Assembly: GCA_037576195.1 (NCBI GenBank)
Contig: CM075102.1
Coordinates: 13,140,745 to 13,204,744, forward strand
Reading direction: 5' to 3'
DNA: 64,000 nt
Source: Phytoseiulus persimilis
Taxonomy: Eukaryota; Arthropoda; Arachnida; Mesostigmata; Phytoseiidae
The stretch's first letter is position 1. Each line of letters starts with the position of its first letter. A program made the position numbers and the translations under genes. This document shows, in pieces, positions 2,894-62,510 of the stretch. The notes below the pieces were generated by a model. The model made no database searches and had not been told where the DNA came from. It was given only the letters and a program-made list of their open reading frames with translations.

Positions 2894-2960
2894 TGTACTA
2901 AAACACTGAAAAGAACTGTACGAACAATAGCCTCTGAAATACTAGGCAAATGGGACAGCG

Positions 2961-12794: not shown

Positions 12795-12806
12795 GCTCCC
12801 TCCTAC
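12795..12806 (-). promoter_or_regulatory. Polypurine tract of element B
   Basis: Reads AGGAGGGAGC on the minus strand directly before the TGTTG of the 3' LTR, the expected plus-strand primer site. Confidence 0.75.
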
Positions 12807-21330: not shown

Positions 21331-21636
21331 TGCCTGGAGACGACGGCTACTGAATGAAAACGACAATTCTGGTGGACAGAATGTTTGGCTCCCCCAACAC
21401 ACTGAAGTTTTATTCCGGCTTTAATAGTCACTGACAGGGGAGAGTTACACGGCGAGCACTGACGTTTGACGTCAGTCTACAGGCGTCCGATTTCTATCTC
21501 AGTGATCCACAGTAACGCCTGTGCGCGGTTGATCATGCTCAAAGTTCACTGACGCTTCGCTTGCTCGAATGGCGTCTTCCCTGATTACCAAAACTGTGCC
21601 GACGACTGCTCTGGGTAAAACATCAAATACTCAACA
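21331..21636 (-). repeat. 5' LTR of Copia element B
   Basis: 306 bp, TGTTGAGTATT... start on the minus strand; partner of 12489-12794 with about seven substitutions. Confidence 0.93.
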
Positions 21637-22425: not shown

Positions 22426-23127
22426 CTATTCCTTCACTGTTTCCTCTCCGGCGTTGTACAGCGCTGCTGAAATCCACGTGCCCCAGCGTGTTACTACGGG
22501 CTCGGCAGGCATCGCGAGATCGGGTGCTGCGCTTCGGAAAGTGCGGATGCGGGACGGGCACTTTACAAATGCCTTCTTCACGTTAGCGACCAGATGGTCT
22601 ACGGCAGGAAATAATATTCGGACTTCCTCGCATACACGGTGCACCGCGTGGGCCAAGCAAGTTACGTGAACCATCTTCGAGAAGAGACCCTTCAGACCGT
22701 CGACGGCTTTTTTCATGTAAGATGCCCCATCAGAAACAAAGAGCCCACAAAAAAACTTTGTCATGGCAGATCTCTTGTGGCCACAACACACGGAGAGAGT
22801 TCATGAAAGCTTGCGCGACCGATGCATGGTTTGTACGTTCCACAATTTCTGATGCTATCAGGAAGGGGGTTGAGGGTGCTTCTGACGAGAGACAACCGAT
22901 TATTGTGTTGACGACGTATTGGCCCTTTGCGTCTGTGGTCTCGTCCATCTATATCCAGATACGATTCGCACCGACCTCGGTACGGATCCTCAGGATAGTT
23001 GCATCGTAGAGCCTGTTGAGATAGTTTTTCCGGAGCGTGGTATGGTCCGGGAGCTTCTGATTGGAATACTTCTCTAAGAAATTCCGGAAAGACTGATGCT
23101 GCACTTTGTACAGTGGTATGTTGCACT

Positions 23128-35439: not shown

Positions 35440-35690
35440 TGTGATTTTAGAAGAGGGGGCCAAACGCACAAGAACCGTGCAAACCTACAACGAAAAAACC
35501 ACTGCTGCAACCATGGGACCCGGTATACCAATTTCCCAAGAATTCAAGCCGCAAAACGAAACCCTTTCTCAATGGGTTGATCGTCTCGAAAATCACCGAG
35601 AACTTCAAGGAGTTCCGGAGGATGTGAGAAAGAAACGTGCCATTCTCGCGTTTTTGGGAGCATAGGGGTTATAGAAGACTTCATGATCGT
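35440..35690 (+). pseudogene. Ty3/Gypsy-like gag N-terminal fragment
   Basis: Reads MGPGIPISQEFKPQNETLSQ, WVDRLENHRELQGVPEDV and KKRAILAFLGA; a 1-nt frameshift then continues GYRRLHDRPEYED. This pattern (W...RLE..., K+A.LA.LG...Y) is the start of a Gypsy capsid domain. It ends where the truncated LTR of Copia element C begins. Confidence 0.6.
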
Positions 35691-35950
35691 CCAGAATACG
35701 AGGACATTCTGACCGGAACCCTTTTCTGTGAGATACTGACAATGCCATCCATGAAGGACCTTCCGGCCTTCATGGACTGGCTCTTCTTTCGACAGTGGTA
35801 TATATAACCCCAATAAAGCAATGCTCAGGGAGCTACTCTATTCTAACACCAAATCTCTGTCTCTTTATTGTGTGCCGTGCTCTTCCCATACTTCACAGAT
35901 ACTTCTAGGTGAGGTGTCACCAACTGAGCTACGTGGACCTTATTCCAACA
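35690..35950 (+). repeat. 5' LTR of element C, first ~55 bp missing
   Basis: Matches 49437-49696. TATATATAA at 35799-35807 and AATAAA at 35812-35817; ends ttccaaca. Left part replaced by Gypsy gag sequence. Confidence 0.9.
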
Positions 35951-36067: not shown

Positions 36068-38876
36068 ATGATGAATCCATCTGAGAGTCAACGTGGTCAG
36101 GAAGATTCCACCAGCTCCCACGGCTTTAGTGATATAGGCGACGACATGCCCGAGCAATCAGCTAGACGAGTAGGCGAACAGCTGGAACAAGGCAAGGACG
36201 ATGGGACAGATGATGAAGACGGTCTCAACATGACTCCAAGGCATCGTCCCCAGGAACTGGTGCAGTTGAAGCTGGACGGCTCAAATTACACGGCTTGGAA
36301 AACACTGATTTCTGCCGCATTGGATGCAGATCCATATGCGCTCGATGTTGCTCTGGGAAATGTGGCACCGCCTCCTTAAACGAAGACCGACAAACAATCC
36401 AAAGTCCAGAGGCAGAAGTTCGACGCTGGGAACCGTGCCGCGCGATGCACTCTGTTGGCATCGCTCCAAACTGCCCTCGCTGTTTCTCTGTTCTCCGGAA
36501 GATCCGACACCGTGGAAGCCCCAGAAATGTGGCGTGAGATAACCGGCAAGTTCACCCTTACAAATGGTGCTCTGAAACGGTTGGCTCTCACCAAGTTCCA
36601 CAACTTCGTGTACCAGGCGAACAAGACAGCGGGGACAACCTCTTCCGATTCAAGCAGATAGCGGCTCATGTTGCGTCTTTTGGCGTCCAACTTCCTGATG
36701 ATTTGAAGATAACGGTTCTTCTCGATAGTCTTCCCTCATCCTGGGAGGCCTTGAAGCAGGGTTTCAACGCGGGGGAGGATGCGTCTCAATTTCTGACTCA
36801 TCTGATGGCTATCGAACTTGAGACGATCAGAACAGGACGTTTCGACGCTAACGAGGTCACGGCCTTATTCTCGAGACTCCGTACATCCCGTAACAAACAG
36901 CATCGTCAGAAGACTTTCAACAGGACCAGTGTCAACCACACCGTCACTCGAACAACAGAGAGAACCTGTTACAAGTGCGGACGGACTGGATATCTCATGG
37001 CTCAGTGTCGCGTCCCAGTGCAGGGTGGGCACTCCGGCCGAAATCAACCACAGCACCATCATCGTCCTCAGCAACAACATCAGAATCACCAGAGACGCCC
37101 CGGAAGGCGACCTGGAAACCGGCAAAATCAACAACCCGCAACCGCCAACCACAGCGAAGCCCGCGCCATCGAGTTCTACAATTGTGAGTTAGAGCAGGCA
37201 GAGACAAACAGCGTGACTCCAGACAATGAGTTCATCGTGGACAGTGGAACAAATTTTCATATGATCAACTCCAAAAATCATTTGATCAACTACGTACCAT
37301 GTCCTCAGGCACGACAGGTCAGACTTGGGGGGTCTAGGACTCTGAGCGCTCCTGGGTCCGGGACTGCCTGTGTGACCTTTATGCAGAATGGACAGCCCAA
37401 AACTGTTCTCCTGAAGGATGTACTGTATGTTCCACGACTCCGTCGGAATCTCTTGTCGGTCTCGAAACTCACTGACGATAGCTTCGATTTGCGGATCTGT
37501 CGGGATTCTATCCACATGACAAAAGGGGAGATGACCATACGAGCGATTCGTAAAAATGGTCTCTACCTTCTGTACTCCACTGGAACGGCCGAAGGACTCG
37601 AAGCTGAGGGCAAAGAAGAGAAAAAGAGAAAGATCAGCCTAACAAAAGTGCACCGAACATTCGCCCACATAAACGTAGGATGGCTTCAGTCAATGTTGGA
37701 GAGACAAGGCTATGAGGTGCTCAAGGATATTACCAGCTGCGAGAGCTGTGTAAAAGGAAAAGTGCATAGAGCGAGCTATCGATCAAAGCCGATCAGCTCC
37801 CGCGCCCCTCGGATCGGATACATCAGCAGTGATGTCTGTTTTGTGAGCACCATGTCCTACGGAGGACATCAAGCATTCCTCACATTGACTGACGACTACA
37901 GCCGCTTCCGTGAAACGTATTTAGTCCGGAACAAAGTGGAAGTCTACGATCGAGTGAAGGACTTCCTCAAATGGTTCAGGCTCAGAACTGGACAACAAGT
38001 GTACCATTTCCACTCGGACGGCGGGAGTGAGTTTGTCAACAGGAGATTGCAGTCACTCCTCACCTCAACAGGATGTGACTACTCCTACCCCCCCCCCCCC
38101 CCCCCCCCCCCATACACAACACAGCTCAACTCGATTAGTGAACGCCTTAATCGTACACTATTGAACCTCGCAAGAACGATCATTATCGACAGCCAGTTGA
38201 AGAAGGGAGTTCGGGGGGAAGCAATTTCGTTCTCGACTTTCTGCCAGAATGTCACGAAATTCCTCGACCCTCCTGGCAAGACCCCATTCGAAATCATTAC
38301 TGGTCAGAAGCCCTATCTGGGTAGAGTTCTGAGGTTCGGAACCCGTCGTTGGTTCTACAATATCAAGCCTGACAAAACCAAGCTGGATCAGAGAGCCATC
38401 GCAGGAGCAGTCGTTGGCATCGACGAAGACGGTCTCAGTTACCGTGTACTCGAACTTGGAACGACCAGGATTCATCGTATCCGAGATATCCTAGTGAACG
38501 AGCCAGCACCCCTGTTCGAGGAAGAAAATCAACTTCCCGAAGAACCTTCACAGAATTACCCATCAACGAATAGCAACGAGACTCCAGCGAATGATGAAGA
38601 ACCCTCTCCCAGCGACGCCGGCGGCCGAGACAGCGCCGATGACGACAGCAACGACTGGAGTGGAGAGAGAAATGTGGATGTCGAATTGGGGATCGGCCCG
38701 GATGATGTGCCCGGCGGTCCGACACCGCCTGCCGTAAGTTCGCGCGAACAGAGGACACTAGGGAAAACTCCGGCAACGGCGAGTGAAAAATCCGAGGGAC
38801 GCAAGTGTGCCTTGAGAAGTAGAGAAACTCTCAAGAAGCCGGATAGGTACCAGGCAGGGTTAGCCTTCCTTGCCAC
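36068..38876 (+). pseudogene. gag-protease-integrase of Copia element C
   Basis: gag begins at 36068 (acidic leader, then LVQLKLDGSNYTAWKTLI, the Copia capsid start), has a TAA at 36377-36379 and a frameshift near 36632, then continues unbroken from 36703: CCHC knuckle (CYKCGRTGYLMAQC, with Tyr where His is expected), protease FIVDSGTNFHMI, pre-integrase KVHRTFAHIN...CESC, integrase with DVCFV, FHSDGGSEF and SISERLNRT. A run of 24 C at 38088-38111 adds prolines between the second and third catalytic residues. A Ser/Asp-rich linker leads into the Gypsy insertion at 38877. Confidence 0.9.
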
Positions 38877-39030
38877 TGTATTTCTCCTTAGTTCTTGATA
38901 ACTATAAGTTGTAGAGTGGAGCCATTGGGTGGTCTTGCTTTGTGCGTGACTATGCAACGCGACTTGTTTATTGTTATTGTACGTCAGCCGGTATATAGAA
39001 GCATGATAGAAGTCTATGACGGATATAACA
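38877..39030 (-). repeat. 3' LTR of the nested Gypsy
   Basis: 154 bp, TG...CA; partner of 43131-43284. Confidence 0.95.
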
Positions 39031-39041
39031 TCTTCCCTTTC
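39031..39041 (-). promoter_or_regulatory. Polypurine tract of the nested Gypsy
   Basis: Reads GAAAGGGAAGA on the minus strand immediately before the 3' LTR. Confidence 0.8.
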
Positions 39042-39075
39042 AAGGATGTGCAATGATAGTGGGTATGACTAAATG

Positions 39076-42000
39076 TTATGGTTGAGCGTATTTGGGATTC
39101 GGTCTCGGGATCCTACTTGAACGCCGCGTCTGCATAGGCTTGTGTCTTGCGCCAGTGACCGGGGGGGAATTCGGTGGAGTTCTGTAGTCCTCGACTTCTG
39201 AGGTCCCGGCTGGTTCAGGTATCAGGTTTATCATAACTCTGTTTCTCCGACACGTCCTGCCCGACCCTTCATCCTGGACGACGTAGGATCTTGGCTGTGC
39301 CAACACCGTTACCACCGTTCCTTTTTTCCAAACGTTGCGATGTGGTTCCTTGACGCGTACTCTGTCTCCTCTTTTTAGCGGCGGTAGCTCTCGAGCGTGC
39401 AGGTCATAGTACTGCTTCTGGATGTGCCGTTCTTTTTCTAGTTCGCTTCTCACGCGCTCGGGGGGGATCGTTCTAGGTTGGAGATTGTTCGGATGACTAG
39501 GCAGCGGCGTTCTAGTTGTTAGTCCCATCAGACGTCGACAAGGCGAACCGAGCCGCTCGTTTCTTTGTACGTTCCGTAACTCTAATATGGCCATGTAGTA
39601 TTCTTGCGAACCGAACTCATACTTTCTCAGGACCTTTTTTGCTTCTTGTACTGCCCTCTCAGCGAGCGAATTCCCTCGGGCATGGTACGGGCTCGATGTG
39701 GTCATTTTGATTCCCAAATTGCGCAGGTTGGTTCGGAATTCCCCCGATGCACACTGCGGGCCGTTATCCGACTTGATGATCCGAGGCAGTCCGAAGTGTT
39801 GGAAGACCTGGCAGAGTGCCGTTAGTACTGACTTCGCCGATGTACTCTTCATTCTTATCGCCTCGAAGTAGAAACTGTACGCATCCACGACAATGAGGAA
39901 CTCTCGTCCTTCGAAGTTGAACAAATCCAAGTACACGGTCGACCACGGTAGGTCCGGTATTTCGCTTACCCACATTGGTTGCTTCGTGTTTGCCCTCCTG
40001 TGCGTTTGACACTTGTCACATTGCCGCACGAACTCCTCTATTTCGATATTGAGCGACGGCCATTATATCGTGTTTCTCGAGCGGCTTTTCATTTTGGTAC
40101 TCCCGCTATGAGCTCCATGTAGTTGTATCAGGACCTCTCTTCTTGTTGTGCTCGGAACGATGATGCGATTCGACCTCGTGACTAGGCCCGATTCCACATG
40201 TATTTCATCTCGGCAAGGCCAATACGTGCGGGCCCGTTCTGGTACCTCTCGCTTGTCTCTCGGCCAACCGCTGTTCGAGAGTGACGTCAACATCTGGCTC
40301 TCTGGGTCATCAGCCGTTGCTGCGACATATTCTTCCAAACGGTGGTCCTGGATCGCAATGCTGCCGATGACGCAGTTCGGTATCTCATCATCTGCAACCT
40401 CAGGAACCGGGTTCCGAGAGAGGAAGTCCGCCATGAGTAGTTCTTTCCCCGGCTTATATGTGACCCGGAGATCATACCGCTGCAAGGCCATCCTCATTTT
40501 TTGTAGCCTTAGGGGAACCTGATAGAGAAGTTTCTCCATAATCGCCTCTAGTGGTTTGTGGTCGGACTCTACCAACATCTCTTTCTGGCCCAGTATATAA
40601 TAGTGGAACTTCTGGCAGCCAAACACAATTGCCAGTAACACTTTTTCAATTTGGGCATATTTTTGTTGCGTTTCCGTTGATGAGCGACTCGCGTATGCGA
40701 CGGGATGAGCACCCTGTAACAACACTGCGCCGAGCCCGTGCTGCGATGCATCAACCGACAATGTGACCGGTTCGTTTGGTTCGATAAACTTTAGCACCGG
40801 AGCTTGGATCAGCATGTTTTTCAGCTTCTCGAAAGCCGACTCCTGGTGTACTTCCCATGTGAACACGACATCTTTGGCGAGAAGTTGCCTGAGGGGTGCC
40901 ATGTGACTCGACAAGTTGGGGATGAAATTTGCGACGAAGTTAAGCATCTCAAGAAACTTTTGTACGTCCTTAACGCTGGTGGGTGTCTTGACGTCACAAA
41001 TATCTTTGATTCTCTGTTGCTCAATTCTGAGGCCGCTTTCGGATATCGTGTGTCCCAGGTACCTCACCTGTGACCGGCCTATTTTGCATTTCGACTCATT
41101 GAGGACCATTCCAGCGTCGACGCACTGTTGCAGAACCCTGGACAGGCGCGCGTCATGCTCCTCTCTCGTCGACCCCCATACCAGCAGGTCGTCGACGACA
41201 GCACTCACGCCATCCAGCTGCGCGAACAATTCATCCGTTAGTCTTTGGAATACGTCGGATGCGCAAACTATGCCGTACGACATTTTCAGAAAACGGTATC
41301 GGCCCCACGGGCTGGTGAAGGTGCACAGAAATGAGCTCTTCCTGTCAAGTTTCACCTGCCAGAAACCCTCATCTGCGTCCAGTGTCGAGAAGTATTTTGC
41401 TCCGAAAAGCTTTGACGATATCTGTTCGAGTCTTTTCGTCGGATGTGGGCCCCGTTGAATAGCCTTGTTGAGATGTGTGGGATCCAGACAAACTCGTATT
41501 TTCCCATTCGCTTTTTTCGTAATCGTGAGGTTCGATACAAACTCCGTATGTTCATCGACGGGAACAATTACACCCTTGTTGACCATACGCTGAAGTTCTT
41601 TCCTCGCCGCACCTTCATATTTGATTGGTATTGGCCGACAGGGACTGATCACAGGCTTGTAGTCTTGTTTCAACTGTATGTTGCACTCGAAGTTCTTGAT
41701 ATTTCCAACTCCCTTGAAGGCAGCCGGGAACTTGGCTCGCCACTTATCCAAATCTTCATCTCCATCGCTCAGTGTTTTGATTGGTTTTACTATTCCCAGA
41801 GCCTCAGCTGTGTCCCCGCAGATCGTCGGTGACACTGGATCGTTTACAATGTAGAACTTTTCCACAAGCTTGGTGTCCTTGTATGACAAGGGGAGGTACG
41901 CCACCTGTTGGCTGTCGTGAGCGTCTCCAAAGAATGACAAGAGACGAGTTTTCCGCCGACCCGTTGCTACCGGTATCTTTTGTTCATGGAGATGGTCGAT

Positions 42001-43080
42001 GAATTTTTTCGCGAGTACGCTAACATCTGCTCCCGTGTCAAGGGCGCATGATACTTTCTGCGAAGCTATGTTCAGAATCTCGAGCCATTTTCTTTCGGTG
42101 GTATTGTTGATACTGGCTATTTTTTTGGTTGCATTGATCGCGAAATCATCGGTTTCGGTGCCGCTGGATCGTTTGTCTTCGTTTATGGTCCATACGCGTC
42201 GTTTCGTTCTCATATCTTGGGTGCTTTGCCGATTGTCTTTTCGAGTTTGAGTTTTCCTCGTGCTGTTGCTGTAGCGAGAGCGACAAAATCGAGCGGAATG
42301 TCCTTCCCTTGAGCATTGGTCGCATGTTTTCCCGTACGCCGGACACGAGTTTCTCGAATGTCTTGCGCCACATCGGCTGCAAGCTCCTCTGTTGATTGCC
42401 GCTATCTGCCCAAACCCTTGGGCTGAGCTGTACTCTTCGTCCTCGCTGCTGTTCAAGCCTCCGTCAAGGCGTATTTTAGCCACTGTTCTGGCGGAATCGC
42501 CCTTAATGGTTTTTGTACCCTGGTCTCCGGCCTCAAAACCTCGACATTTTTTTAACGTTGCCGTCAGATCATAAACTTCAGTTAACAACGTTCGCTGTAG
42601 CTCTCTGTTGTGGATGCCGACGATCAACCTCGATTTTACAAGACGTTCTTCGAGCGCGCCAAACGCACAGTCACGAGCTGATGTCTTTATCCTTTCGTAG
42701 AAGCTTTCGAAGCTTTCTCCCGATTTCTGATCTTTTTCACGTTGCCAGAAATGGAAATCTGCTAAGGTTTCCGTTGTCGCCTCCCCAGTTTTGGTTTCAA
42801 TGTCTTTCTTTAGCTTTTCGAATGAGCCGGTTTCATCAATGGCGTTCCTGCTCAGCCATTTCCGAGCAGGACGGCCCAAACAGTCTAACAGCGCACATCT
42901 CTTGTACTCCTCGTCCTGCTTGTCGAGGTGCGTGAGAGTCGCGAAGATCTTGAAGTCCGAGATGAAACGTCTCCAGGACTCCGAAAGGTTTTCCCGTTCA
43001 ACGTTCAGTGGCTTCGGCTTTGTCGCCATCAGCACTCCGGTCGCCATTGTCATTGGTAGCTGCGGGTCAGTTGCATTCAT
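39076..43080 (-). pseudogene. Single-frame Gypsy gag-pol with one nonsense codon
   Basis: One frame of 1335 codons holds everything: capsid (about 30-180), double zinc knuckle (CSRCGARHSRNSC...CDQCSREGHSARFC), protease VSCALDTGADVSVLA, RT with LDADEGFWQVKLD and AVVDDLLVWG (VVDD instead of the common YxDD), RNase H SVDASQHGLGAVLLQ and DHKPLEAIM, integrase zinc region (LHGAHSG ... CDKCQTH), and core residues in VYLDLFNF, IIKSDNGPQC and SLAERAVQEAKK, ending in a basic C-terminus. The only lesion seen is TAA at 40063-40065, where a Tyr before WPSL is expected. A fused gag-pol in one frame recalls the Mag/CsRn1-type lineages. Confidence 0.93.
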
Positions 43081-43118
43081 GCTAACTCACTGTTTTCTGG
43101 TTTTGGGTTCTAGCTCAC

Positions 43119-43130
43119 GCGCTGACACCA
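43119..43130 (-). promoter_or_regulatory. Primer-binding site of the nested Gypsy
   Basis: TGGTGTCAGCGC on the minus strand, directly after the 5' LTR; complementary to a tRNA 3' end finishing ...GACACCA. I do not assign the tRNA. Confidence 0.7.
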
Positions 43131-43284
43131 TGTATTTCTCCTTAGTTCTTGATAACTATAAGTTGTAGAGTGGAGCCATTGGGTGGTCTTACTTTGTGCG
43201 TGACTATGCAACGCGACTTGTTTATTGTTATTGTACGTCAGCCGGTAGATAGAAGCATGATAGAAGCCCATGACGAATATTACA
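43131..43284 (-). repeat. 5' LTR of the nested Gypsy
   Basis: 154 bp; partner of 38877-39030. Confidence 0.95.
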
Positions 43285-44946
43285 GCCACCAGTAGCGCTA
43301 CAGAGTCTAACCAGACAAGCGAAACATTAGGCAGTTCAGAACAAGGGGTAGACGTGCCTTCATGCCTAGCTGATGTTAATCGCTCTAAGTACAAAAAGGA
43401 TTGGCTCGCCGCAATGGCTTCGGAGCTAGAATCATTCAAGAGTAATGAAGTTTATCAGCTCGTGGTTCCCGAGCCAGGACTGCATGTCCTTTCGAATCAT
43501 TGGATCTTTTCCTCGAAGTTCAACGAGGATGGCCAGATAGTGAGAAGGAAAGCTCGACTTGTCCTCGGAGGACACAGACAGAGAGCCGGACTTCACTATG
43601 ATACCTTGTTCTCGCCGGTTGCAAAGTACGAGACCATTCGTACTGTCCTGTCAATGTGCGCCAGGGAAAGATTGTGGATTCGGCAAGCCGATGTATCCAC
43701 TGCCTTTCTATCTGCCTCACTGGACCGTACTCTTTACATGAAACAGCCATCGGGAATGGAAGATGGAACTGGAAGAGTATGCAAGCTCCTCAAAGCGATG
43801 CACGGAGCGGTCCAGAGTCCTCTTTGCTTCAACAAGAAGCTGAATGACACATTGCTAAACTTGAAATCCGTGAAACTCACGAGGAGCAACCTCGACCCAT
43901 GCCTCTATTTCTCAAACAAACCCAACAGAGTTTTTATCTTGGTTTATGTCGATGATTGCCTGATCGCATCCGACAAAGAACAAACCAATGAGGAGTTGGT
44001 CAAGGAAGTCCAAGAGACGTTTGAACTCACCGCGAAGCCACTGGAATTCTTCTTGGGAATGAGGATTGAAATCTCCCCAGACCGAGGAACTATCCAGGTC
44101 AACCCGGCTCAATACATAGCAGAATTGCTAGACCGTTTCAACATGAAGAACTGCAAGGCATCTCCTGTTCCAATCGATGCCACTTGGAAATCTGCCTTCG
44201 AGGGGGAAGTCGATCTCAGTCTCCCATATTGAGAACTTGTGGGGGGTTTGATGTTCGCTTCCTTAGTAAGCCGAGCGGAAATTTCGTACAGCGTGAACAT
44301 GTTGGCTCGACATCTGGAGAGGCCTACCAAACACCTCTGGAACGTTGGTCTTAAAGTATTGAGGTATCTGTCTGGAACACGCTGTTTCGGTCCGAAATAC
44401 ACTGGGGATGTCTCTGATGGCATATTCGCATACAGTGATTCTGACTGGAGTGGGTGCAAGGCAACCAGAAGATCCACGAGCAGCGCATTCATCCTATTCG
44501 GAGGCGCGTGCGTAGTTTGGCCCTCAAAGAGACAAAACTGCATTTCGCTGAGCTCCATGGAAAGCGAGATCATAGCCTGTAGCGAAATGGGAAAGTCCGT
44601 GGTCTTGTTGACCCGCCTTCTGGGAGAGGTCGGATACCCAGTGGTACAAACTCTTCGGGTGGACAACACAGGTTGTTTGAATCTCTTCACCACCACACAG
44701 GTCTCCAGAAAAAGTAAGCATATCGAAATTCGCTACTTTTGGATGAGAGAAAAGATTGAGGCTGGAGAGTTTAAAATCGAGCATTGTGTGACTGATAAGA
44801 ACATCGCAGACATAGGAACTAAAGCTCTGCCTGAAACTCACTTTGTGGCGCTGCGGAATCTTGCAGGCATCAAAAACCATGTGGAGTTTCAAAGCAATCT
44901 TGGCTCTTCAGCTCGTGGCAAGGGTCACCAGCTTCTTCGAGTATAG
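43285..44946 (+). pseudogene. pol: RT-RNase H of Copia element C, one nonsense codon
   Basis: Continues the frame broken at 38876. RT: WIFSSKFNEDG, RQADVSTAFLSAS (catalytic Asp), VYVDDCLIASD, FFLGMRIE. A TGA at 44230-44232 stands where element B has an Arg codon (LPYRS), a likely CGA to TGA change. RNase H continues in the same frame: YSDSDWSGC, STSSAFILFGG, SSMESEIIACSE, RVDNTGCLN and SKHIEIRYFWMREK. Its 3' end overlaps the Env-like gene by 68 bp. Confidence 0.93.
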
Positions 44947-45385
44947 TTCCTGCTGTTTGCCCCTCTGCATACGGTCCAACCAACAATGCATGATCTCAGA
45001 ATTGAGTCCGGAACACTTCCCAGTGGATTGCATCCTCACGTTGCATGGCTGCAGAGAAAAAGCGTCACCAACGGTCGCATGTTTGTTTCCTGACGGACAG
45101 GTGTTTGGAGGCAAAGACATCTGGGAAGCGTATTACAACGATACTTATCCGAATCCACCAAATCCTGATCCAAACCCATCAACGAAGACGAACTTCCTCC
45201 TACTTTACGCGGTAATCCTCACGACGATCGTAGTGATCTATGGCGGTACTAGCTGTTCCCGATGCGTCATTCAAACATGGCGTCGGCAGCAGTACCAGCG
45301 TCTCAGCAGAGAAGATCAACCTCCTGCTGCCGGGGCTAACATGAACACCGGCTCGCCCTATGGCGCCACCACTCAAAACATCTAG
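44879..45385 (+). CDS. Env-like six-Cys type I membrane protein of element C
   Basis: 168 residues, intact. Signal peptide FKAILALQLVARV, FFEYSSCC, Cys at 26, 30, 37, 51, 58 and 68 with the family spacing C-x3-C-x6-C-x13-C-x6-C-x9-C, FGGKD, an N-glycosylation sequon (NDT), a stalk of PNPPNPDPNP, TM helix about 104-122 and a tail with WRRQQYQRL. Start 44879 is chosen because it precedes the signal peptide directly; an upstream GTG-frame extension lacks one. It overlaps the pol end in another frame, so it needs a spliced or internally initiated message. Shares its layout with the proteins of elements A and B despite low overall identity. Confidence 0.8.
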   Translation: MWSFKAILALQLVARVTSFFEYSSCCLPLCIRSNQQCMISELSPEHFPVDCILTLHGCREKASPTVACLFPDGQVFGGKDIWEAYYNDTYPNPPNPDPNPSTKTNFLLLYAVILTTIVVIYGGTSCSRCVIQTWRRQQYQRLSREDQPPAAGANMNTGSPYGATTQNI

Positions 45386-45459
45386 GATTCGATCATTCAC
45401 GGTGATCTCTCAAATAAACGGAAAGCAACTTCTAGCCAAATAAGAACACTCTCACTTCC

Positions 45460-47068
45460 TCATGAATAATACTTGACAAAATTTTTACATTGTTTTCCGA
45501 ACTTGTCATGCTCATCATCAATGGCAAATTCTTCATGTCCAACATATAGATGTACAGTCATTGTGTTCCTGAGCGGAGTTGTTCTCCGGACGAAAATGCA
45601 GATCTTGTGAATCAGCGACTTACAAATTCGATTGTAACTCATGGTCGTGCACTGATACCGATTGACGGGTGTGTACAGAATCATAGGTGGCGGCTCGGTG
45701 ATAACAACGCCCGGTGTTGTACTGTCAACATCATTGACAGCCGGATTGGTCGATGAAGAGGGGAGAAAGGACTCAGATGATTCATTGTTGGTTGATGACG
45801 GTCCTTCTGTAGTTGATGTTTCCAACTTGTCTTCAACGGTTGTTGGTGTTGAAACGTCGGGAGCCTCTGAGGTAGTCGATGATGAAGCTTTCTTGGCCTG
45901 ACCAGTGGTTGTCGTTGAGCGAACCGTGGTGAGGGTTGTGACGACCGGCTTGCGGGAGGTGGTCGATGTTGTGCTTCCGACCGGCCTCAAGGTGGTACTT
46001 TGAGTCGGACGTGTCGTAGTCGTGATTCTAGCGGACACGTTCATACGCACCGGGTTTGTTTAGAGGACGACGAGATCATCCGAGGTCTCAATCATGGCCT
46101 CGGGGCCAGATTTGCTCTTCTGTTCATTGACAGCCCGAGATTCTGCGATAGACACAACCGATAGTGGTCTGGCGGAAAAGGAACGCACAGACGCTGAGAA
46201 CGAATGGATGGTGGATGATGGAGAAATCAGACTTGTCCAGCTGGTCGTTCTGAGGGAGGATTTAGAGTAGTGAACTCTGTCCCTCAATGATGGAGATGAT
46301 GACCGGAACAACGCTGGAGTCTGAGGGACCCGTGTTGGCTGAATCAAGGTCGGCATTATGATACTCCGACGAGAAAGCCTTGGGAAAACTGAAGGCGTGA
46401 CCACTCTGCGCTCAGAAGAAAGCTCAGCAAATCCCGAAGGTGAAACATTGAAAATGTTAGATCTAGAAAGACGTTCAGGGAACGGAGATCTCGTAGACAG
46501 AAGATGTCTTGACTTTGATGAATCCATCTCACGACGGAGAGAAGCCCCGAGAAGATACCTCTGGTAGGTTAACTTCTGCTCCGTTGTGAAAGTCGTCAAG
46601 CTTGCGGAAGTTTCGAGAGTACGGGTAGGCGAGATCATGGTTGAGATCACAGAAGGAACAGCTGGTTCCGATGCAGAGTTAGATTAAGTGAGTTCTGAAG
46701 GGACCGGAATCACATGCAGCAGGAAAAGAGTGGAAGACATCTCAAGCCACGCGGTCGATGGCTCAAGGGAAATTGAGGAACTATCCATCGACCGAGATGT
46801 AGACAACGAGAAAGACTCAGAGAGGCAACACGCACTTTGATGATCCTCTGGGCAAAGTGTTTGGTAAAAAGCACTCTCCATCCACTGATGAAAAGTCCGG
46901 ATGTCTCACGGAAGGGAGCACATACGACACGAATACTCCCCAAACGAGATAAAGACTGAGAGCTAAACTCAGCAGAAAGAGGATGACCCCGGCCACTCGG
47001 CTGGCCATCGACTTGAATTGAGACATCGAGTTCATCGCGAGTATATTGTGAACCGTGGAAATCCACAT
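45460..47068 (-). pseudogene. Convergent gene 1 of element C: mucin-like type II membrane protein, decayed
   Basis: First exon near 47068-46910: short cytosolic part and TM helix (VAGVILFLLSLALSLYLVWG), with a possible GTGAGA donor and an acceptor near 46816 in phase 0. One Ser/Thr-rich frame then runs to 45463 but contains TAA at 46684-46686 and at 46060-46062. The C-terminus has YQC-x8-C-x7-C (YQCTTMSYNRIC...KIC) and QCKNF, the same module as the element B mucin gene. It is tail to tail with the Env-like gene at 75 bp. Exon limits are uncertain; the stops could mark further introns, but I see no good sites. Confidence 0.65.
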
Positions 47069-47748
47069 CGAGTCAGGTCTTGTATACCTGCGAACTCGAT
47101 GAGAAAGGGGCCCCCTCTGTCAACACAACTTGGAGTGTTGTGAGTGTTGTTGTTTAATCCGACACGGATAGAAAATATGCGTTCGTGGTCGTTGGATTTC
47201 TCTGAGAAGCTGATCGCGGTATCGATAACACTCGAAAAGCATAAACAAACTTCTGAGATTGAAAACAAGTGGTTTCTGAGATGGTTCATGTCTCAAGCGC
47301 GGACGCACTTGGACGCTGTCCCAGTGGGACTGCATGCTGTGGACTTTACTGAAACACTGCATCTCAGAAAATGCGTCACGGGCGCATTGCCATCGACAAC
47401 CAGACAGGTTTCTTCGTACCGATGTGTTGAGATGCAACACGCGAAAGCGGATGCATCCGAATCTAGATTCAGCAGACTCGGTTCGTACTAGAACCCACGC
47501 CACTCAAGGCGCCAAAGTAATCAATCCTTTCATCAGAAAACCTTAGAACCCCGGCTTAGTGCCGTAATTACTAACACCCTCGAAGTACTCCCCGAAGACT
47601 CAACTCAACAACTCTCACTCTCCCAATCACATCCCATATAACCATACTCAACACCCGAATAAACTACTGTTCATCTATACGCCGTACTGTCTTCTCCTTG
47701 CTACCGTATCAGTGTCCGCGAGGTGAATCTGCCTGTGCACGGAGCCCT
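47069..47748. other. Spacer between convergent genes 2 and 1 of element C
   Basis: No supported ORF. On the minus strand it would hold the end of gene 2 and any promoter of gene 1. Confidence 0.4.
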
Positions 47749-48857
47749 CTAGCTAGTGTGCCACTGAAGACGAATTTCCTCTCTAACACGATGTTTACAG
47801 GCCCAACCATCGTCATGACGCTTGCATTGGAAATACAGCGTAGAGATTCTTTTGCTGGATGGTGGCGCCGCATCAGGGATGAAACTGCGGTCGGTGACAA
47901 GTTCCGGATCGATCGGATTCTGCGATGGATTCAGATTGCTTCTTGCTCCTGAATCCAGAGTGTGGAACATGAGAATGTTTCCAGTTCCAGCTGTAACAAA
48001 GCAGCGAATTAGTCCGTGCCGGAGAAGATTGTTGAAACTACCAGGGGTCTGTGATGCCGTCTCTGATCGAGAGAATTTGTGACTGACGTACCTGTGATCA
48101 GGAGGAGAAGAAATCCGATGATCCATTTGCGTCTCTCCACTATCGTTCGGGCATCCTGACGAATGGAGCTCCAGCGAGCAGTTGGTACATTCGTGCTCTC
48201 CACGTGTTCACACGGAACCCGAGTAGATTCTTCGGTTTGGGCCTCAGTTGAGTACAGGTTTTCGGCAATGGCGAGTCTCACGGAGTTGAGGGAGGACCGC
48301 TGAGATCTCACTGTAGTTGAGAGCAGGTCCACCTCAGTCTGTTGAGAACGCACGCTGGTAGCAAGGCATGAAACATTCGAGCCTAGTGTGGTGACTGCAG
48401 ACTTGAGATTCTTAATCTCCGTGTTCAGGATACACTGCATCGAAACGACGTCGGTAATTTCTTTTCCAAACTTCGTGACCGTGGCAGATTGCTGGTCCTG
48501 ACGAGTTCGGATGTCCTTGTCTGCTTGGCCCAAGCTTCGATGTCGTTGATTGGTACGGTCAGCGAAATCTCGAAAGGCTGAATCCATCCGAATGAGACGA
48601 ACTTTTTGCGATTCCACTTGGAGCTCTTCTATCGAATGAAGAATCGGCTTAATTTGCTCGGTGGATGCTACAGACTTCGCGAAGAGATCAAGCTGTACCA
48701 GGAGTCGCGAGAAGTTGTCAGCGTTCTGATTCGTCCGGTTCACCAGCTCGCGAATTACTGTTTGCATGTCGCGGGTCGACGAAAGCTGGTTCACGCGGGA
48801 AATCATGTCGTTCCGATACAGTTCAATGTTGGTTTCCATGCGAGCGACACGATCCAT
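47749..48857 (-). CDS. Convergent gene 2 of element C: coiled-coil type II membrane protein, spliced
   Basis: Exon 1 48857-48092 and exon 2 47990-47749, 335 residues. Residues 1-200 form long heptad-rich helices (METNIELYRNDMISRVNQL; TEIKNLKSAVTTLGSNVS). ERRK precedes a TM helix at about 245-265, which is completed only after splicing. The donor CACAG|GTACGT is phase 1 and the acceptor TTTGTTACAG supplies the two missing bases. The short ectodomain ends with YFQC-x8-C, matching the first two Cys of the shared module. An in-frame TAA lies just upstream of the ATG. A separate ORF beginning MSEEQLSMVNVSEDHP at 48980 with a GTAAGT donor at its end may be an alternative first exon. Function unknown; perhaps an oligomerising partner of the Env-like protein. 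Confidence 0.65.
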
Positions 48858-49379: not shown

Positions 49380-49696
49380 TGTTGAAATATAGCCATATTT
49401 CTGGGTAGCTGGAATTGGTCTGAAACAATGCAGGGTCCAGAAGACGAGGACATTCTGACCGGAACCCTTTTCTGTGAGATACTGACAATGCCATCCATGA
49501 AGGACCTTCCGGCCTTCATGGACTGGCTCTTCTTTACACAGTGGTATATATAACCCCAATAAAGCAACGCTCAAGGAGCTACTCTATTCTAACACCGAAT
49601 CCCTGTCTCTTTATTGTGTGCCGTGCTTTTCCCATGCTCTGCAGATACTTCTAGGTGAGGTGTCACCAACTGAGCTACGTGGACCTTATTCCAACA
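49380..49696 (+). repeat. 3' LTR of Copia element C
   Basis: 317 bp, TGTTGAAATATAG ... ttccaaca. TATATATAA at 49544-49552 followed by AATAAA at 49558-49563. Confidence 0.92.
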
Positions 49697-51425
49697 GAAT
49701 CTTCGGAATTCCTCGGAGAGCCGGGGAAAGACTCAACTCCGAGAATATTCAGGATTCCTCGAAGAGCCTCAACTCCGAGAATCTTCGGGATTCCTCGAAG
49801 AGCCTTAACTCCGAGAATCTTCGGGATTCCTCGAAGAGCCATGGACAGATTCAACTTAGAGAATCCTCGGAATTCCTCGAAGAGCCGTGGACAGACTCAA
49901 CTCCGAGAATATTCAGGATTCCTCGAAGAGCCTCAGCTCCGAGAATATTCGGAATTCCTCAAAGAGTCGTGGAAAGACTCAACTCCGAGAATATTCGGAA
50001 TTCCTCAAAGAGTCGTGGAAAGACTCAACTCCGAGAATATTCGGAATTCCTCAAAGAGTCGTGGAAAGACTCAACTCCGAGAATATTCGGAATTCCTCGA
50101 AGAGCCGTGGACAGACTCAACTCAGAGAATATTCAGGACTCCTCGAAGAGTCTCAGCTCCGAGAATCTCCGGGATTCCTCGAAGAGCCATGGACAGATTC
50201 AACTCCGAGAATCCTCGGAATTCCTCGAAGAGCCGTGGACAGACTCGACTCCGATAATATTCGGAATTTCTCAAAGAGCCGTGGAAAGACTCAACTCCGA
50301 GAATATTCGGAATTCCTCGAAGAGCCGTGGACAGACTCAACTCAGAGAATATTCAGGACTCCTCGAAGAGTCTCAGCTCCGAGAATCTCCGGGATTCCTC
50401 GAAGAGCCATGGACAGATTCAACTCCGAGAATCCTCGGAATTCCTCGAAGAGCCGTGGACAGACTCTGCTCCGAGAATATTCGGAATTCCTCGAAGAGCC
50501 GTGGACAGACTCGACTCCGATAATATTCGGAATTTCTCAAAGAGCCGTGGAAAGACTCAACTCCGAGAATCTTCGGGATTCCTCGAAGAGCCATGGACAG
50601 ATTCAACTCCGAGAATCCTCGGAATTCCTTGAAGAGCCGTGGACAGACTCAACTCCGAGAATATTCGGGATTCCTCGAAGAGCCTCAGCTCCGAGAATGT
50701 TCGGAATTCCTTTAAGAGTCGTGGAAAGACTCAACTCCGAGAATATTCGGAATTCCTCGAAGAGCCGTGAACAGACTCGACTCCGATATTATTCGGAATT
50801 CCTCAAAGAGCCGTGGAAAGACTCAACTCCGAGAATCTTCGGGATTCCTCGAAGAGCCATGGACAGATTCAACTCCGTGAATCCTCGGAATTCCTCGAAG
50901 AGCCGTGGACAGACTCAACTCCGAGAATATTTAGGATTCCTCGAAGAGCCGTGGACAGACTCGACTCCGGGAATATTCAGGATTCCTCGAAGAGCCTCAG
51001 CACCGAGAATATTCGGAATTCCTCAAAGAGTCGTGGAAAGACTTAACTCCGAGGATATTCGGAATTCCTCGAAGAGACGTGGACAGACTCGAGTCCGAGA
51101 ATCTTCGGTATTCCTCGAAAAGCCATGGACAGACTCAACTCCGATAATATTCGGAATTCCTCAAAGAGCCGTGGAAAGACTCAACTCCGAGAATCTTCGG
51201 GATTCCTCGAAGAGCCATGGACAGACTAAACTCCGAGAATATCCGGGATTCCTCGAAGAGCCTCAACTCCGAAAATCTTCGGGATTCCTCGAAGAGCCAT
51301 GGACAGCCTCAACTCCGAGAACATTCGTAATTCCTCGAAGAGCCATGGACAGACTCGACTACGAGAATCTTCGGAATGCTTCGAAGAACCATGGGCAGAC
51401 TCAACTCCGAGAATCTTCGGAATTC
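49697..51425 (+). repeat. 46-bp satellite array
   Basis: About 37 units of 46 bp (ggaattcctcgaagagccg ... gactcaactccgagaatatt), with some shortened units lacking the gtggacaga part. Because 46 is 1 mod 3, one frame cycles through three peptides (NSSKSRGQTQLRE, FLEEPWTDSTPR, FGIPRRAVDRL), producing long open frames that are not genes. Confidence 0.93.
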
Positions 51426-55569: not shown

Positions 55570-56145
55570 CTTGTCATTCCGAAGATTCTCAGAGTTGTAA
55601 TTCCAAATATTCTCGGAGTTGTTGAAGGCTGTCCTCGGCTCTTCAAGGAATTCCGAAGATTCTCGGAGTTAAGGCTGTCCACGGCTCTTCGAGGAATTCC
55701 GAAGATTCTCGGAGTCAAGGCTGTCCACGGCTCTCCGAGGAATTCAGAAGATTCTCGGAGTTAATGTTGTCCACGGCTCGTTGAGATATTCCGAAGATTC
55801 TCGGAGTTGAGGCTGTCCACGGCTCCTCACGGAATCCCGAATATTCTCGGAGTTGAGGCTCTTCAAGGAATTCTGAATATTCTCGGAGCTGAGTCTGTCT
55901 ACGGCTTGTTGAGATATTCCGAAGATTATTCGAGTTGAGTCTGTCTAGGGCTCTTCGAGGAATTCCGAATATTCTCGGAGTTCAGGTTGTCCACGGCTCG
56001 TTGAGATATTCCGAAGATTCTCGGAGTTGAGGCTGTCCATGGCTGGTTGAGATATTCCGAAGATTCTCGGAGTTGAGGCTGTCCACGGCTCTTCAAGGAA
56101 TCCCGAATATTCTCGGAGTTGAGGCTCTTCGAGGAATTCCGAAGA
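55570..56145 (-). repeat. 46-bp satellite, diverged array
   Basis: About 12 units, more diverged than at 54385-55090; fuses directly with the 45-bp minisatellite near 56146. Confidence 0.85.
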
Positions 56146-56860
56146 TACTTTCCAACCCTGGAGGGGTGATTCCGAGACCAATCTGGCGATTACTTTCCAA
56201 CTCTGGAGGGATGATTCCGAGACCAATCTGGCGATTACTTCCCAACTCTGGAGGGGTGATTCCGGGGCCAATCTGAGCATTACTTTTCAACTCTGGAGGG
56301 GTGATTCCGGGGCCAATCTGAGCATTACTTCCCAACTCTGGAGGGGTGATGCCGAAACCAATCTGAGCATTACTTTCCAACTCTGGAGGGGTGATTCCGG
56401 GGCCAATCTGAGCATTTCTTTCCAACTCTGGAGGAGTGATTCCAGGGCCAATCTGAGAATTTCTTCCCAACTCTGGAGGGGTGATTCCGGGGCCAATCTG
56501 AGCACTTCTTTCCAACTCTGGGGGGGTGATGCCGAGACTAATCTGAGCATTACTTTCCAGCTCTGGAGGGGTGATTCCAGGGCCAATCTGAGCATTTCTT
56601 TCCAACTCTGGACGGGTGATGCCGAGACCAATCTGAGCATTACTTTCCAACTCTGGAGGGGTGATTCCAGGGCCAATCTGAGCATTTCTTTCCAACTCTG
56701 GAGGGGTGATTCCGAGACCAATCTGACCATCTCTTTCAAAATCAGAATACTGACCCAGTGAAGGGAGAGAAAGGTGCCTCGATGGCAGGGAGCGCCGTCC
56801 AACCGCGCGCAGCGCGGACGATTCCAGTCGGCCAGAGGCCGGCTGGTGTATCATATTCGG
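56146..56860 (-). mobile_element. 45-bp minisatellite element, left end lost
   Basis: About 13 units of 45 bp followed by the same right end as the 58546-62510 element (gacccagtgaagggagagaa ... ggccagaggccggctgg). Confidence 0.75.
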
Positions 56861-56889
56861 CTATCATATTATTTCACATGGTTTCTCAG

Positions 56890-57896
56890 CGCTCACCGAC
56901 AGCCGACAAACCGAAGAGGGACCACCCCCAACGCTGCAAAGAACAGGAGCAGAAATCGTCCCAGACGTCGGTGAGTTTTTTGAAGTTGTCTACATTCCTT
57001 GTGAATTTCATGTTCAGGCTCTGAGCAAGACGATCTAGCACCCGTCTGTAGCTCTGCCATGCCCTGCTGTGATCATTCGCTTCTCGCGAAATCCAGGGTC
57101 AGTTCGGGCATTGCTATTGTGAGATGATGGCATTTGCCTCAACCTGACAACTCGACGCCCATGATCCTATGATTTTGTGATCTCGCTCCGCAAACGCGAA
57201 CAACATCATTCCGAAGATTCTCGGAGTTGTAACTCTGAAGGGTCCCAGAGTTGAGTCTTTCCGCGGTGCTCTGAAAAGTTCCGAAGAGTCTCAGAGTTGT
57301 GATTCGGAAGTTTCCTGGAGTTGAGCTTTCCGTGGATCTTTGAGAAGTTACATATCATATGCGGCGGGTATCATATTTTCTTTCACATTGTTTCCTCAGA
57401 CGGTCGCCAATGTAACCAAGGTTCTCCAAATGCACTCGAGCATTATAACGCAACGATTCCAAAAATCATAAGACTCATGGCCGTTGCACCCGCAGTTTGC
57501 CGCGTAGAAAATATAGCAGACGCAGAAAAGCTATTGGTCAAACTCCGCCAATCGACCATTCTGCCAGATTTTGAGAAGGTCCCGTATAAAATAAAGCTTG
57601 CTCTGGCGGGGAGAGCCCCAAAACTAAGTGTAAATATTGAGACGTGGGTGAATGATGCCGAGGACGAGTCGGTTGAAGATTTCATTCGTCCCGTGATGTG
57701 GCAGTTATTCTGTGAAGCCCTAAAGCGTCTCGAGCATAATTCGGCATTGAGAAGTTACGGGCGGTTCTCCACGCGGAATCACTACGTTCGACTCTCGACA
57801 GGCTCAGGACAGAAATCTGGACGAACCAACGGGGCTCGTGGTCGCCTTGCTGGTGACCACGAAACCCTCGGGTTTGACCACTTTGCGAAACGTTAG
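56890..57896 (+). CDS. Candidate multi-exon gene, product unknown
   Basis: Exon 56890-56970 (81 nt, phase 1 at both ends) and exon 57400-57896 join in frame (acceptor ttgtttcctcag). The second exon encodes IPKIIRLMAVAPAVCRVENI, then ADAEKLLVKLRQSTILPDFE and LALAGRAPKLSVNIETWVND, an alpha-helical region that might be a gag-like capsid or a host protein; no motif decides. After the stop at 57894, another frame (57838-58026) has NHTQICLYCTKKLREFEKKK, so a frameshift may have cut a C-terminal zinc motif. The upstream exon-like block at 55135-55325 could be an older duplicate. A family search is needed before trusting this. Confidence 0.35.
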
Positions 57897-58000
57897 GAAG
57901 GACGGAAAGAACCACACCCAAATCTGCCTGTATTGCACGAAGAAACTCAGGGAATTTGAGAAGAAGAAAGGAGTAATCAGCGGTGTAGACCAGGCTCTTA

Positions 58001-58275
58001 GTCGGCTCGTTGGCCGTGTGGCATAAACCAACGCCTTGTGTGCCACGCTAAGCTAGCAATCGCGGGTTCGATCTCCGGCCGACAACAAAAATTTCTTATG
58101 TGGTAAAAAGAGGATTTAATTCATATCAGAATTAAATCTGAACCATCTTAAGACCCAAGCCCACCGCCCGCAATGGGATTTGCGAGGCGATAGGGAGTGT
58201 TACTGAAGCAATACCGAAAGGTGATTCCGGGACTCTTCTGAGGGCTGGCTGAGAGGTTCAGCCGGAAAACAAAGA
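58001..58275 (+). repeat. tRNA-derived SINE candidate
   Basis: 58001-58083 has pol III-like boxes (A box tggccgtgtgg near 58011, B box ggttcgatctcc at 58065-58076) and closing ends GTCGGCT / GGCCGAC that pair over 7 bp. A body follows that recurs at 7251-7362 plus 8237-8305. Too irregular in the anticodon arm to call a working tRNA. Confidence 0.5.
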
Positions 58276-58545
58276 CCAGGCTCCTAAACAAGGCCACGAT
58301 CACTTCGAATTCCATCATAAAAAAACCATTTGCATCCATCAGGACCAAGTGTCTTTCTTATGATAATACTCTTCTCCTATCTCCTTCGCCAATATGATTA
58401 AATCGGAATCCCCGAATATGAAGCAATGGGCAGAAGCAGTTCTCATTGCCAATACCAAATGGTGAAGAATAATCATGCTCATGAATCACAATGCTATTGA
58501 TGACAATATGAGAATATTGACTGTTATATTGATGAATTACAATCC
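58276..58545. other. No recognised gene
   Basis: AT-rich spacer between the SINE and the minisatellite element. Confidence 0.4.
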
Positions 58546-61500: not shown

Positions 61501-62510
61501 GGTGATTCCGGGGTCAATCTGAGCATTACTTCCCAACTCTGGAGGGGTGATTCCGGGCTCAATCTGAGCATTACTTTCCAACTCTGGAGGGGTGATTCCG
61601 AAACCAATCTGAGCATTACTTTCCAACTCTGGAGGGGTGATTCCGTGCTCAATCTGAGCATTACTTTCCAACTCTGGAGGGGTGATTCCGAGACCAATCT
61701 GAGCATTTCTTTCCAACTCTGGAGGGGTGATTCCGGGGTCAATCTGAGCATTACTTCCCAACTCTGGAGGGGTGATTCCGGGCTCAATCTGAGCATTACT
61801 TTCCAACTCTGGAGGGGTGATTCCGAGACCAATCTGAGCATTTCTTTCCAACTCTGGAGGGGTGATTCCGGGGTCAATCTGAGCATTTCGTTCCAACCCT
61901 GGAGGGCTGATTCCGGGGTCAATCTGAGCATTACTTCCCAACTCTGGAGGGGTGATTCCGGGGTCAATTTGAGCATTATTTCCCAACTCTGGAGGGGTCA
62001 TTCCGGGGTCCGCCTGAGCATTACTTTCCAACTCTGGAGGGGTGATTCCGAGACCAATCTGAGCATTTCTTTCCAACTCTGGAGGGGTGATTCCGAGCTC
62101 AATCTGAGCATTACTTCCCAACTCTGGAGGGGTGATTCCGGGGTGAATTTGAGCATTATTTCCCAACTCTGGAGGGGTGATTCCGGGGTAAATCTGAGCA
62201 TTACTTTCCGACTCTGGAGGGGTGATTCCGGGGTCAATCTGAGCATTACTTTCCAACTCCGGAGCGGTGATTCCGAGACCAATCTGAGCATTACTTCCCA
62301 ACTCTGGAGGGGTGATTCCGGGGTCAATCTGAGCATTACTTTCCAACTTTGGAGGGGTGATTCCGAGACCAATCTGACCATACTTTTCAAAATCGGAATG
62401 CTGACCCAGTGAAGGGAGAGAAAAGTGCATCGATGGCAGGGAGCGCCGTCCAAGCGCGCGCAGCGCGGCTGACTCCAGTCGGCCAGAGGCCGGCTGGTTA
62501 TATATAGTAA
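58546..62510. mobile_element. TIR-flanked carrier of a large 45-bp minisatellite
   Basis: Ends TTACTATATATAATCGGC (58546) and the complement of TTACTATATATAACCAGCC (to 62510) are inverted repeats. The left subterminal part has tandem gtctgtcagtttgtc; the right has gacccagtgaagggagagaa and a GC-rich stem (gtcggccagaggccggc). No transposase inside. Three other members lie in the window. Confidence 0.7.
58640..62380. repeat. 45-bp minisatellite, about 80 units
   Basis: Unit ggaggggtgattccg(a/g)g..caatctgagcattactt.ccaactct. Very homogeneous, with higher-order alternation of gagacc, ggggtc, gaggcc and gggctc variants. As 45 is a multiple of 3, each frame repeats a 15-residue peptide without stops (for example ITPPELESNAQIGLG), giving a spurious open frame of over 1000 codons. 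Confidence 0.96.

Follow-up and report, generated by a model that had tools for sequence, protein, structure and literature searches.

A two-strand module of predicted membrane proteins, with cassette-like variation of an antisense gene, in Copia retrotransposons of Phytoseiulus persimilis

Animal Copia elements are usually regarded as purely intracellular. What, then, are genes for membrane proteins, some of them on the opposite strand, doing between pol and the 3' long terminal repeat (LTR) of such an element? The question arises from a 64,000-nucleotide stretch of Phytoseiulus persimilis DNA (hereafter the window; C2:13140745-13204744 of the 181-Mb genome). An earlier sequence-only reading had proposed that a Copia element in the window, element C, carries an envelope-like sense protein of type I topology behind RNase H, followed by two antisense genes for type II membrane proteins, and that a second element, B, has the same order. 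Following this module through the genome, we observed a constant gene order and strand, a multi-copy distribution, reading frames that are open and partly under selection, intron signals on the antisense strand, and a cassette-like replacement of the second antisense gene (gene 2). We give roughly even credence to the reading that these Ty1/copia retrotransposons carry a two-strand surface-protein module serving transfer between cells or hosts, with gene 2 as an exchangeable attachment or recognition protein.

Element C lies on the forward strand between LTRs at 35689-35950 (5') and 49435-49696 (3'), which are 95.4% identical in a self-blastn comparison. An open reading frame (ORF) at 36703-38898 (+) holds the Pol_BBD, rve (integrase) and SH3_retrovirus domains, its 3' end entering a nested LTR element, and two ORFs at 43270-44946 (+) make up the reverse transcriptase (RT) and RNase H region (RVT_2, PF07727, E = 4e-49). 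Overlapping the end of pol is the ORF of the type I protein (44879-45385, +), with a signal-like N-terminus, a cysteine-rich ectodomain, a proline-rich stalk, a transmembrane (TM) segment and a tail. Behind it, on the minus strand, antisense gene 1 (45460-47120, right end approximate) encodes a serine/threonine-rich stalk and a four-cysteine head. Antisense gene 2, also on the minus strand, consists of exon 1 (48092-48857; a cytoplasmic part, coiled-coil-like by eye, and the TM segment), an intron (47991-48091) and exon 2 (47650-47990, left end approximate; ORF 47749-48126), which encodes the ectodomain in a shortened frame. The minus-strand ORFs of the module are 45460-46050 and 46060-46650, both pieces of gene 1, and 48009-48857, belonging to gene 2. 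At 6 of 14 C-type places in the genome gene 1 is open for 552-564 codons, and the copy L039 (copies elsewhere in the genome are given as L with a number) was also used as a basis. Exon 2 of gene 2 is open for 108 codons in L039 versus 79 in the window copy.

Element B lies on the minus strand, between LTRs at 12481-12795 (3') and 21323-21637 (5') that are 97.5% identical. Its RT and integrase regions occupy 18760-20843 (-), with the RVT_2 place at 18760-19476 and rve/SH3 in 19944-20843, and pol closes with RNase H in an ORF at 18027-18758 (-). The type I protein is encoded at 15175-15699 (-), and its relatives shift frame past about residue 130 relative to this copy. The antisense genes are on the plus strand. 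Gene 1 has exon 1 at 13827-14073, which contains the TM segment, a 79-nt phase-1 intron at 14074-14152 (GTATGT..CTACAG), and exon 2 at 14153-15084, encoding a serine/threonine-rich stalk and a four-cysteine head. Gene 2 has exon 1 at 13132-13315, with the TM segment at its end and a GTGAGT donor directly behind it, and exon 2 at 13426-13659, which encodes a four-cysteine head and whose start is approximate in this copy. In both elements integrase precedes RT in element sense (the rve match of B is slightly under its cut-off), and domain order together with the RVT_2-type reverse transcriptase marks them as Ty1/copia. The type I ORF and the antisense ORFs were found where the sequence-only reading had placed them, and B has the same order of a sense type I gene followed by two antisense type II genes. 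No convincing 5-bp target-site duplication was found at the LTRs of B and C, where we looked for one.

The sense proteins of the two elements are related, as had been proposed: a search with the C protein retrieves that of B at E = 4.1e-12, and the reverse search succeeds at 3.0e-12. Ten aligned type I proteins, including three near-identical copies from lineage E and two from C, share nine invariant columns, four of them cysteines (C30, C37, F47, C58, S63, C68, G78, P94 and P96 in C numbering), and all ten keep the hydrophobic N-terminus, the proline-rich stalk and the TM segment. Six columns are still invariant in a 14-row alignment of more, partly different sequences. In the AlphaFold2 model, residues 21-90 form mixed strands and helices at a block-mean predicted local distance difference test score of 82-91 (71.4 for the whole model). 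A Pfam scan of the C and B proteins gave a best E of 0.63 for C and no match for B, and thus no known Env sequence family for either. A search of 5.8 billion proteins yielded a single relative, P0001 (E = 7.9e-25), encoded on a 5274-base contig. The C protein does not combine a furin-type site and a fusion peptide in a large ectodomain. Nor does it resemble the fusion-associated small transmembrane (FAST) and sORF2 proteins, defined by an ectodomain of about 30 residues and an N-myristoylation motif; it has a signal-like N-terminus and a longer, cysteine-rich ectodomain.

How widely is the module distributed? We took the best 150 of 443 candidate RVT_2 matches in the window's own genome as a sample, and in 86 of these 150 a type I protein lies downstream on the same strand within 3 kb. 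The distance from RT is about 330-2183 nt overall and 610-894 nt in 79 of the 86. Since random placement predicts about 0.2 such pairs (an estimate that ignores transposon clustering), the association is not a matter of chance. The 64 matches counted as lacking a type I protein include element B itself, in which a long interspersed nuclear element (LINE) lies in between, and others among them may have type I matches beyond those listed. When the whole genome was searched with the C type I protein, at least 150 scored rows were obtained at 99% to 21% identity, some rows being pieces of one copy. Many of these matches have open frames of 169-193 codons, and the B protein as query yields an overlapping set.

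The antisense genes follow the same pattern. Searching with the gene 1 proteins of B and C and merging second pieces of one copy, we paired 91 antisense places with 155 type I places (distances on the minus strand are approximate). Behind a type I match on the opposite strand lie 81 of the 91; none lies solely on the same strand as a type I match, and 10 have no type I match nearby. Six short or weak antisense matches were excluded from the 91: one behind an opposite-strand type I match, one at 4.7 kb from a type I match on the same strand, and four without type I nearby. We also read 30 RT-anchored stretches, namely the 20 highest-ranked and the 10 lowest-ranked of the best 150 rather than a random draw; a complete or partial type I protein is in place in 19 of them and not in the other 11. 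Four of those 11 (L021, L023, L024 and L026) form a separate clade whose shared sequence stops about 160 nt past the pol stop, like ordinary Copia, and one (L022) is an E copy broken off past RNase H. The module is neither universal among the Copia elements of this genome nor a one-off: it recurs in several divergent lineages, other copies of the same lineages carry it, and it was not captured once.

The antisense genes share a type II layout, in which a cytoplasmic part and a TM segment are followed by an intron and an exported part with a four-cysteine beta head; B and C carry two antisense type II genes each. In 19 gene copies of lineages B, C, C3, E and F, a phase-1 GT-AG intron of 76-113 nt, read on the antisense strand, begins right behind the TM codons. 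These copies, with both splice sites, comprise alleles 1-5 of the E gene, two copies of B gene 1, B gene 2 in L027, C gene 2 in L039 and in the window (101 nt, GTACGT..TTACAG), C3 gene 2 in L040, and the F gene in L041. In the E alleles the donor is GTAAGT, GTGAGT, GTATGT or GTGAGC right behind the TM codons and the acceptor is again phase 1; the acceptors of L012, L020, L025, L042 and L043 were read from the sequence, the automatic picker having chosen others. The four-cysteine head stands in the phase-1 frame of exon 2 in 17 of the 19, exon 2 being frame-broken in L012 and L042. As a control, we took TM-like segments, 40 in all, from the six reading frames of the window and of ten stretches without a type I protein in place. 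A donor in any phase lay near the TM end in 5 of the 40 and a phase-1 donor in 2, both of which were the B genes themselves. Among the antisense proteins scanned, no Pfam match over the cut-off and no match to TRP28 (PF04195) was found.

These introns change the gene models of element C. The two antisense type II genes that had been proposed are both present, but gene 1 is frame-broken in this copy and gene 2 has two exons. The ORF at 48857-48009 had been taken for a single exon; it runs past the donor (GTACGT, 48091) into the intron, and the exported part lies in the second exon. We therefore rejected a model of two single-exon type II proteins. Joining exon 1 of gene 2 to gene 1 as two exons of one protein is unnecessary, as an acceptor lies about 100 nt past the gene 2 donor with its own cysteine head in frame. 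When an intron runs antisense to the genomic RNA, splicing does not remove it from that RNA, and it survives reverse transcription; such an intron can thus persist through retrotransposition, and its conservation argues for the production and splicing of an antisense mRNA. The antisense introns, the recurring four-cysteine head and the cassette-like variability of gene 2 are all additions to what the sequence-only reading had described.

To ask whether these frames are maintained, we computed the pooled pairwise ratio of nonsynonymous to synonymous substitution rates (dN/dS) in the coding frame. Lineage E carries, behind its type I gene, a further sense ORF (2327-3316 (+) in L016, and in other E copies), which is coiled-coil-like by eye and matches no Pfam family over the cut-off. 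For the E type I gene the ratio is 0.27 (14 copies, no stop), for this sense ORF 0.25 (9 copies, 16 stop-containing codon pairs), and for exon 2 of allele 1, in the antisense frame, 0.23 (6 copies, no stop); this last exon is under purifying selection. Higher ratios were obtained for the C type I gene (0.45; 8 copies, 7 stop-containing pairs) and C gene 1 (0.58; 8 copies, 21 stop-containing pairs). As expected, the opposite-strand frame that shares third positions gave near ratios, with more stops.

The antisense gene of lineage E (its gene 2) proved to be the variable part. Compared with L016, which carries allele 1, copies L012 and L019 (allele 2) and L020 (allele 3) are 97-99% identical over three regions (RT-RNase H, type I gene, sense ORF); behind the antisense gene the figure is 96-97%. 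Identity falls to 70-93% in the stretches adjoining the gene, to 47-54% in its exons, against 95-99% for most other features, and to 37-41% in its intron. By blastn, alleles 1-3 align with one another only at their edges, and the same is true of alleles 4 and 5 (L042/L044 and L043) against allele 1, although these sit in elements 92.6-94.4% identical to L016 over the stretch holding the type I gene. Across the genome we counted 10 places for allele 1, 5 for allele 2 plus 2 at 70-73%, 10 for allele 3, and 7 more that are 30-52% like these. The flanks of copy L012 are closest to allele-1 copies (99.3% identical to L011 in RT-RNase H, 98.8% and 98.9% to L028 in the next segments), whereas in the same segments it is 97.8, 95.6 and 97.6% identical to the other allele-2 copy, L019; yet the allele-2 segments of L012 and L019 are 95.9% identical to each other. 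The flanks ally L012 with allele 1 and the gene allies it with allele 2, and the gene thus has a history unlike that of its surroundings: gene 2 of lineage E has been replaced by cassette exchange between copies. In lineage B, the sequences flanking gene 2 on its two sides are 93% and 90% identical between the window copy and L027, and blastn finds nothing over 13114-13623, where that gene lies. Exon 1 of C gene 2 is not cassette-variable, most pieces being 79-91% identical and a few 64-68%.

How might such a module work? We infer the surface role from membrane topology, and the steps that go beyond anatomy, selection and recombination would run as follows. The sense gene would yield a small type I membrane protein, and the one or two antisense genes type II membrane proteins. 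The latter would probably be transcribed from a promoter of their own beside the 3' LTR, spliced and polyadenylated, with their introns staying in the genomic RNA and hence persisting through retrotransposition. Exposed on the producing cell or on particles, the proteins might allow the passage of capsids into further cells (from soma into germline, for instance) or into other hosts. Membrane activity or anchoring would fall to the type I protein, while the gene 2 product would act as the attachment or recognition partner, its allele swapped by recombination between copies for a new partner or for escape from recognition. Several candidate signals were also seen, as motifs only. A TATA-like box, TATAAAAG, stands ahead of antisense gene 2 of element B (13075-13082, +) and identically in L027, L029 has TATAAA, and one E allele has a weaker TATA-like motif. 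A sense AATAAA occurs 11-32 nt past the type I stop in C (45413-45418 in the window, 28 nt past the stop and ahead of antisense gene 1), L039, L040 and B, with further AATAAA elsewhere in B; in L016 it lies between the sense ORF and the antisense gene. At the antisense stop, AATAAA is present in allele 1 and in the allele-3 copy L020.

A number of observations weigh against a surface module for transfer. The ectodomain of the C type I protein (about 85 residues) contains no RxxR-type site, no recognizable fusion peptide is seen in that protein by eye, and its model, although confident in part, has no clear fold match, so that the envelope label of the sequence-only reading is not upheld. The comparison of both predicted models, four-cysteine head included, with Pfam, PDB and viral structures gave no clear fold match either, and by profile the homology between the heads of gene 1 and gene 2 is weak. 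The intron pattern has gaps: in the window copy of B gene 2 no acceptor lies at the expected place behind the donor at 13316, gene 1 of C and C3 is intronless, and the antisense gene of L028 has lost its TM codons. The gene 1 head of L029 is without its first cysteine. In a third, partial element at the left window edge, element A (RT at 196-918, type I protein at 1629-2117 (+), placed by sequence search and alignment), the antisense ORF has a non-canonical intron site and no four-cysteine head apparent by eye. C and C3 show no TATA-like box upstream of gene 2. Purifying selection is not clear in two-copy comparisons, which are weak: B gene 1 gives 0.61, with 0.54 and 0.58 in two other frames, and E allele 2 gives 1.04. 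Finally, 15 of the 150 type I rows, belonging to lineage D, have a type I gene interrupted by a single TAA, and such copies are numerous (for example C3:30341708, C1:8845891 and L035). The module is apparently not needed for spread within the genome, which agrees with a module required for transfer and not for copying.

Much of the same evidence can be read otherwise. The antisense type II proteins could be self-recognition or superinfection-exclusion factors with which each element family marks the cell it occupies, such that particles of the same allele are blocked from entering, rare alleles win and cassettes diversify. This account draws on the same variability and membrane topology, and five alleles read in one genome, with more indicated, would suit it; particles would still need an entry partner, however, the type I protein being the sole candidate observed for that part, and we consider this account unlikely. 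A purely intracellular role of the antisense genes, for instance in giving shape to membranes or vesicles during particle assembly, with no passage from cell to cell, would make sense of the long, coiled-coil-like cytoplasmic part in C and of the similar-looking separate sense ORF in E. In type II topology, however, the variable, cysteine-containing part is on the exported side, and we regard such a role as improbable.

Regulation offers another reading, in which the antisense genes, by way of their transcript or their protein, tune expression of the sense RNA as HBZ, the antisense regulator of human T-cell leukemia virus type 1, or the antisense ORFs of the plant elements Retand and Grande might. 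Their position and orientation are those of the plant antisense ORFs, as far as the accessible parts of those reports describe them (PMC11963269, PMC7264820), and an internal sense AATAAA lies just past the type I gene. Yet the products have TM segments and cysteine-containing exported heads, those scanned match neither TRP28 nor any other Pfam family over the cut-off, and the exchange of the protein part would go unexplained, which leaves this reading slightly less probable still than an intracellular role. Broken copies, including the window copy of C, and the multiplication of lineage D with its interrupted type I gene might instead suggest dead cargo, that is, host genes captured by chance. 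The same order in divergent lineages largely contradicts this, as do purifying selection in several genes and intron sites kept in ten divergent gene versions, and we hold it to be very improbable.

Other features of the window surround or interrupt these elements. Nested in element C between integrase and RT is an LTR element, gypsy-like by eye, at 38877-43284 (-), with LTR-like repeats at 38877-39030 and 43131-43284 that are 96.1% identical. In B, a 717-codon non-LTR RT ORF (15855-18008, -), with an RVT_1 match and zf-RVT under its cut-off, separates RNase H from the type I gene. The antisense ORF of element A (2291-2941, -), downstream of the type I gene, is 97.7% identical at the DNA level to L045. 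Large arrays built from a 45-bp tandem repeat lie beside C (49696-51425 and about 55600-62400), in either orientation and with long open frames, and a long tandem array is also present in L023. An ORF at 22426-22791 (-) looks like a hAT-type transposase by eye.

Returning to the reading of a two-strand module for transfer, a conserved, partly selected and swapped set of membrane-protein genes would open the transfer of a Pseudoviridae-type element, from cell to cell or from host to host, to direct testing. It would also show how a retroelement can keep introns, and a single genome would hold a natural archive of how surface proteins diversify. More tentatively, and here we lean slightly to the side of doubt, animal-type Copia elements may have given rise to transmissible retrovirus-like entities with a two-strand surface apparatus, in which the intron-bearing antisense attachment gene serves as a swappable, antigen-like cassette. 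If true, this would be, to our knowledge, the first LTR retroelement found whose genomic copies vary a surface protein by exchanging cassettes, with an intron that persists because its gene lies antisense to the genomic RNA.

Parts of this arrangement have counterparts in known systems. Paramyxoviruses pair a type I surface protein, F, with a type II protein, HN or G; the resemblance is one of layout only, the proteins described here being much smaller and no homology having been found. Retrotransposition reporter cassettes likewise place an intron-bearing gene antisense within a retroelement, and in them the strand decides which RNA is spliced. The reporter intron is spliced from the sense RNA, whereas the introns described here are oriented with the antisense gene and so remain in the genomic RNA. 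Plant Copia elements (Sireviruses) and several Gypsy groups are also known to carry Env-like genes. SIRE-1 and other Sireviruses are, in the source material available for them, Copia elements with an env-like ORF, but they are plant-specific, and the likeness considered here is one of layout. An animal Copia element with antisense membrane-protein genes, introns or cassette alleles was not found in the literature searched, a weak negative, as subscription literature was thinly covered.

Further parallels come from other LTR elements. In bdelloid rotifers, LTR retrotransposons have a third ORF past pol, in some cases with TM segments and cysteines, although the lineages described are retrovirus-like and not Copia; the accessible text contains no antisense or allelic genes, its sole use of "antisense" concerning small RNAs (PMC5408684). 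The plant Ty3/gypsy elements Retand, Grande and RIRE2 have extra genes between pol and the 3' LTR that run antisense to gag-pol, a separate upstream promoter has been reported for Grande, and the Retand antisense ORFs with a known domain mostly encode TRP28, predicted to bind DNA (PMC11963269, PMC7264820). These are plant Gypsy and not Copia elements, and the TRP28 products are not membrane proteins; for Retand, no sense TM gene or cassette exchange was found there and the word "intron" is absent. The Drosophila MDG1-group elements lack Env, and their short TM proteins (sORF2) are found at soma-oocyte contacts (PMC11952523). According to the available part of that report, these are Gypsy elements whose forward-oriented genes encode proteins of 63-107 amino acids with an ectodomain of about 30 residues and mostly an N-myristoylation motif (exceptions are noted), and no antisense partner was found in it (PMC11952523). 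Like the type I protein described here, sORF2 is a small TM protein of an LTR retrotransposon without a classical Env, and its link to cell-cell transfer provides, as far as that text goes, a precedent for transfer by a small TM protein in the absence of Env (PMC11952523).

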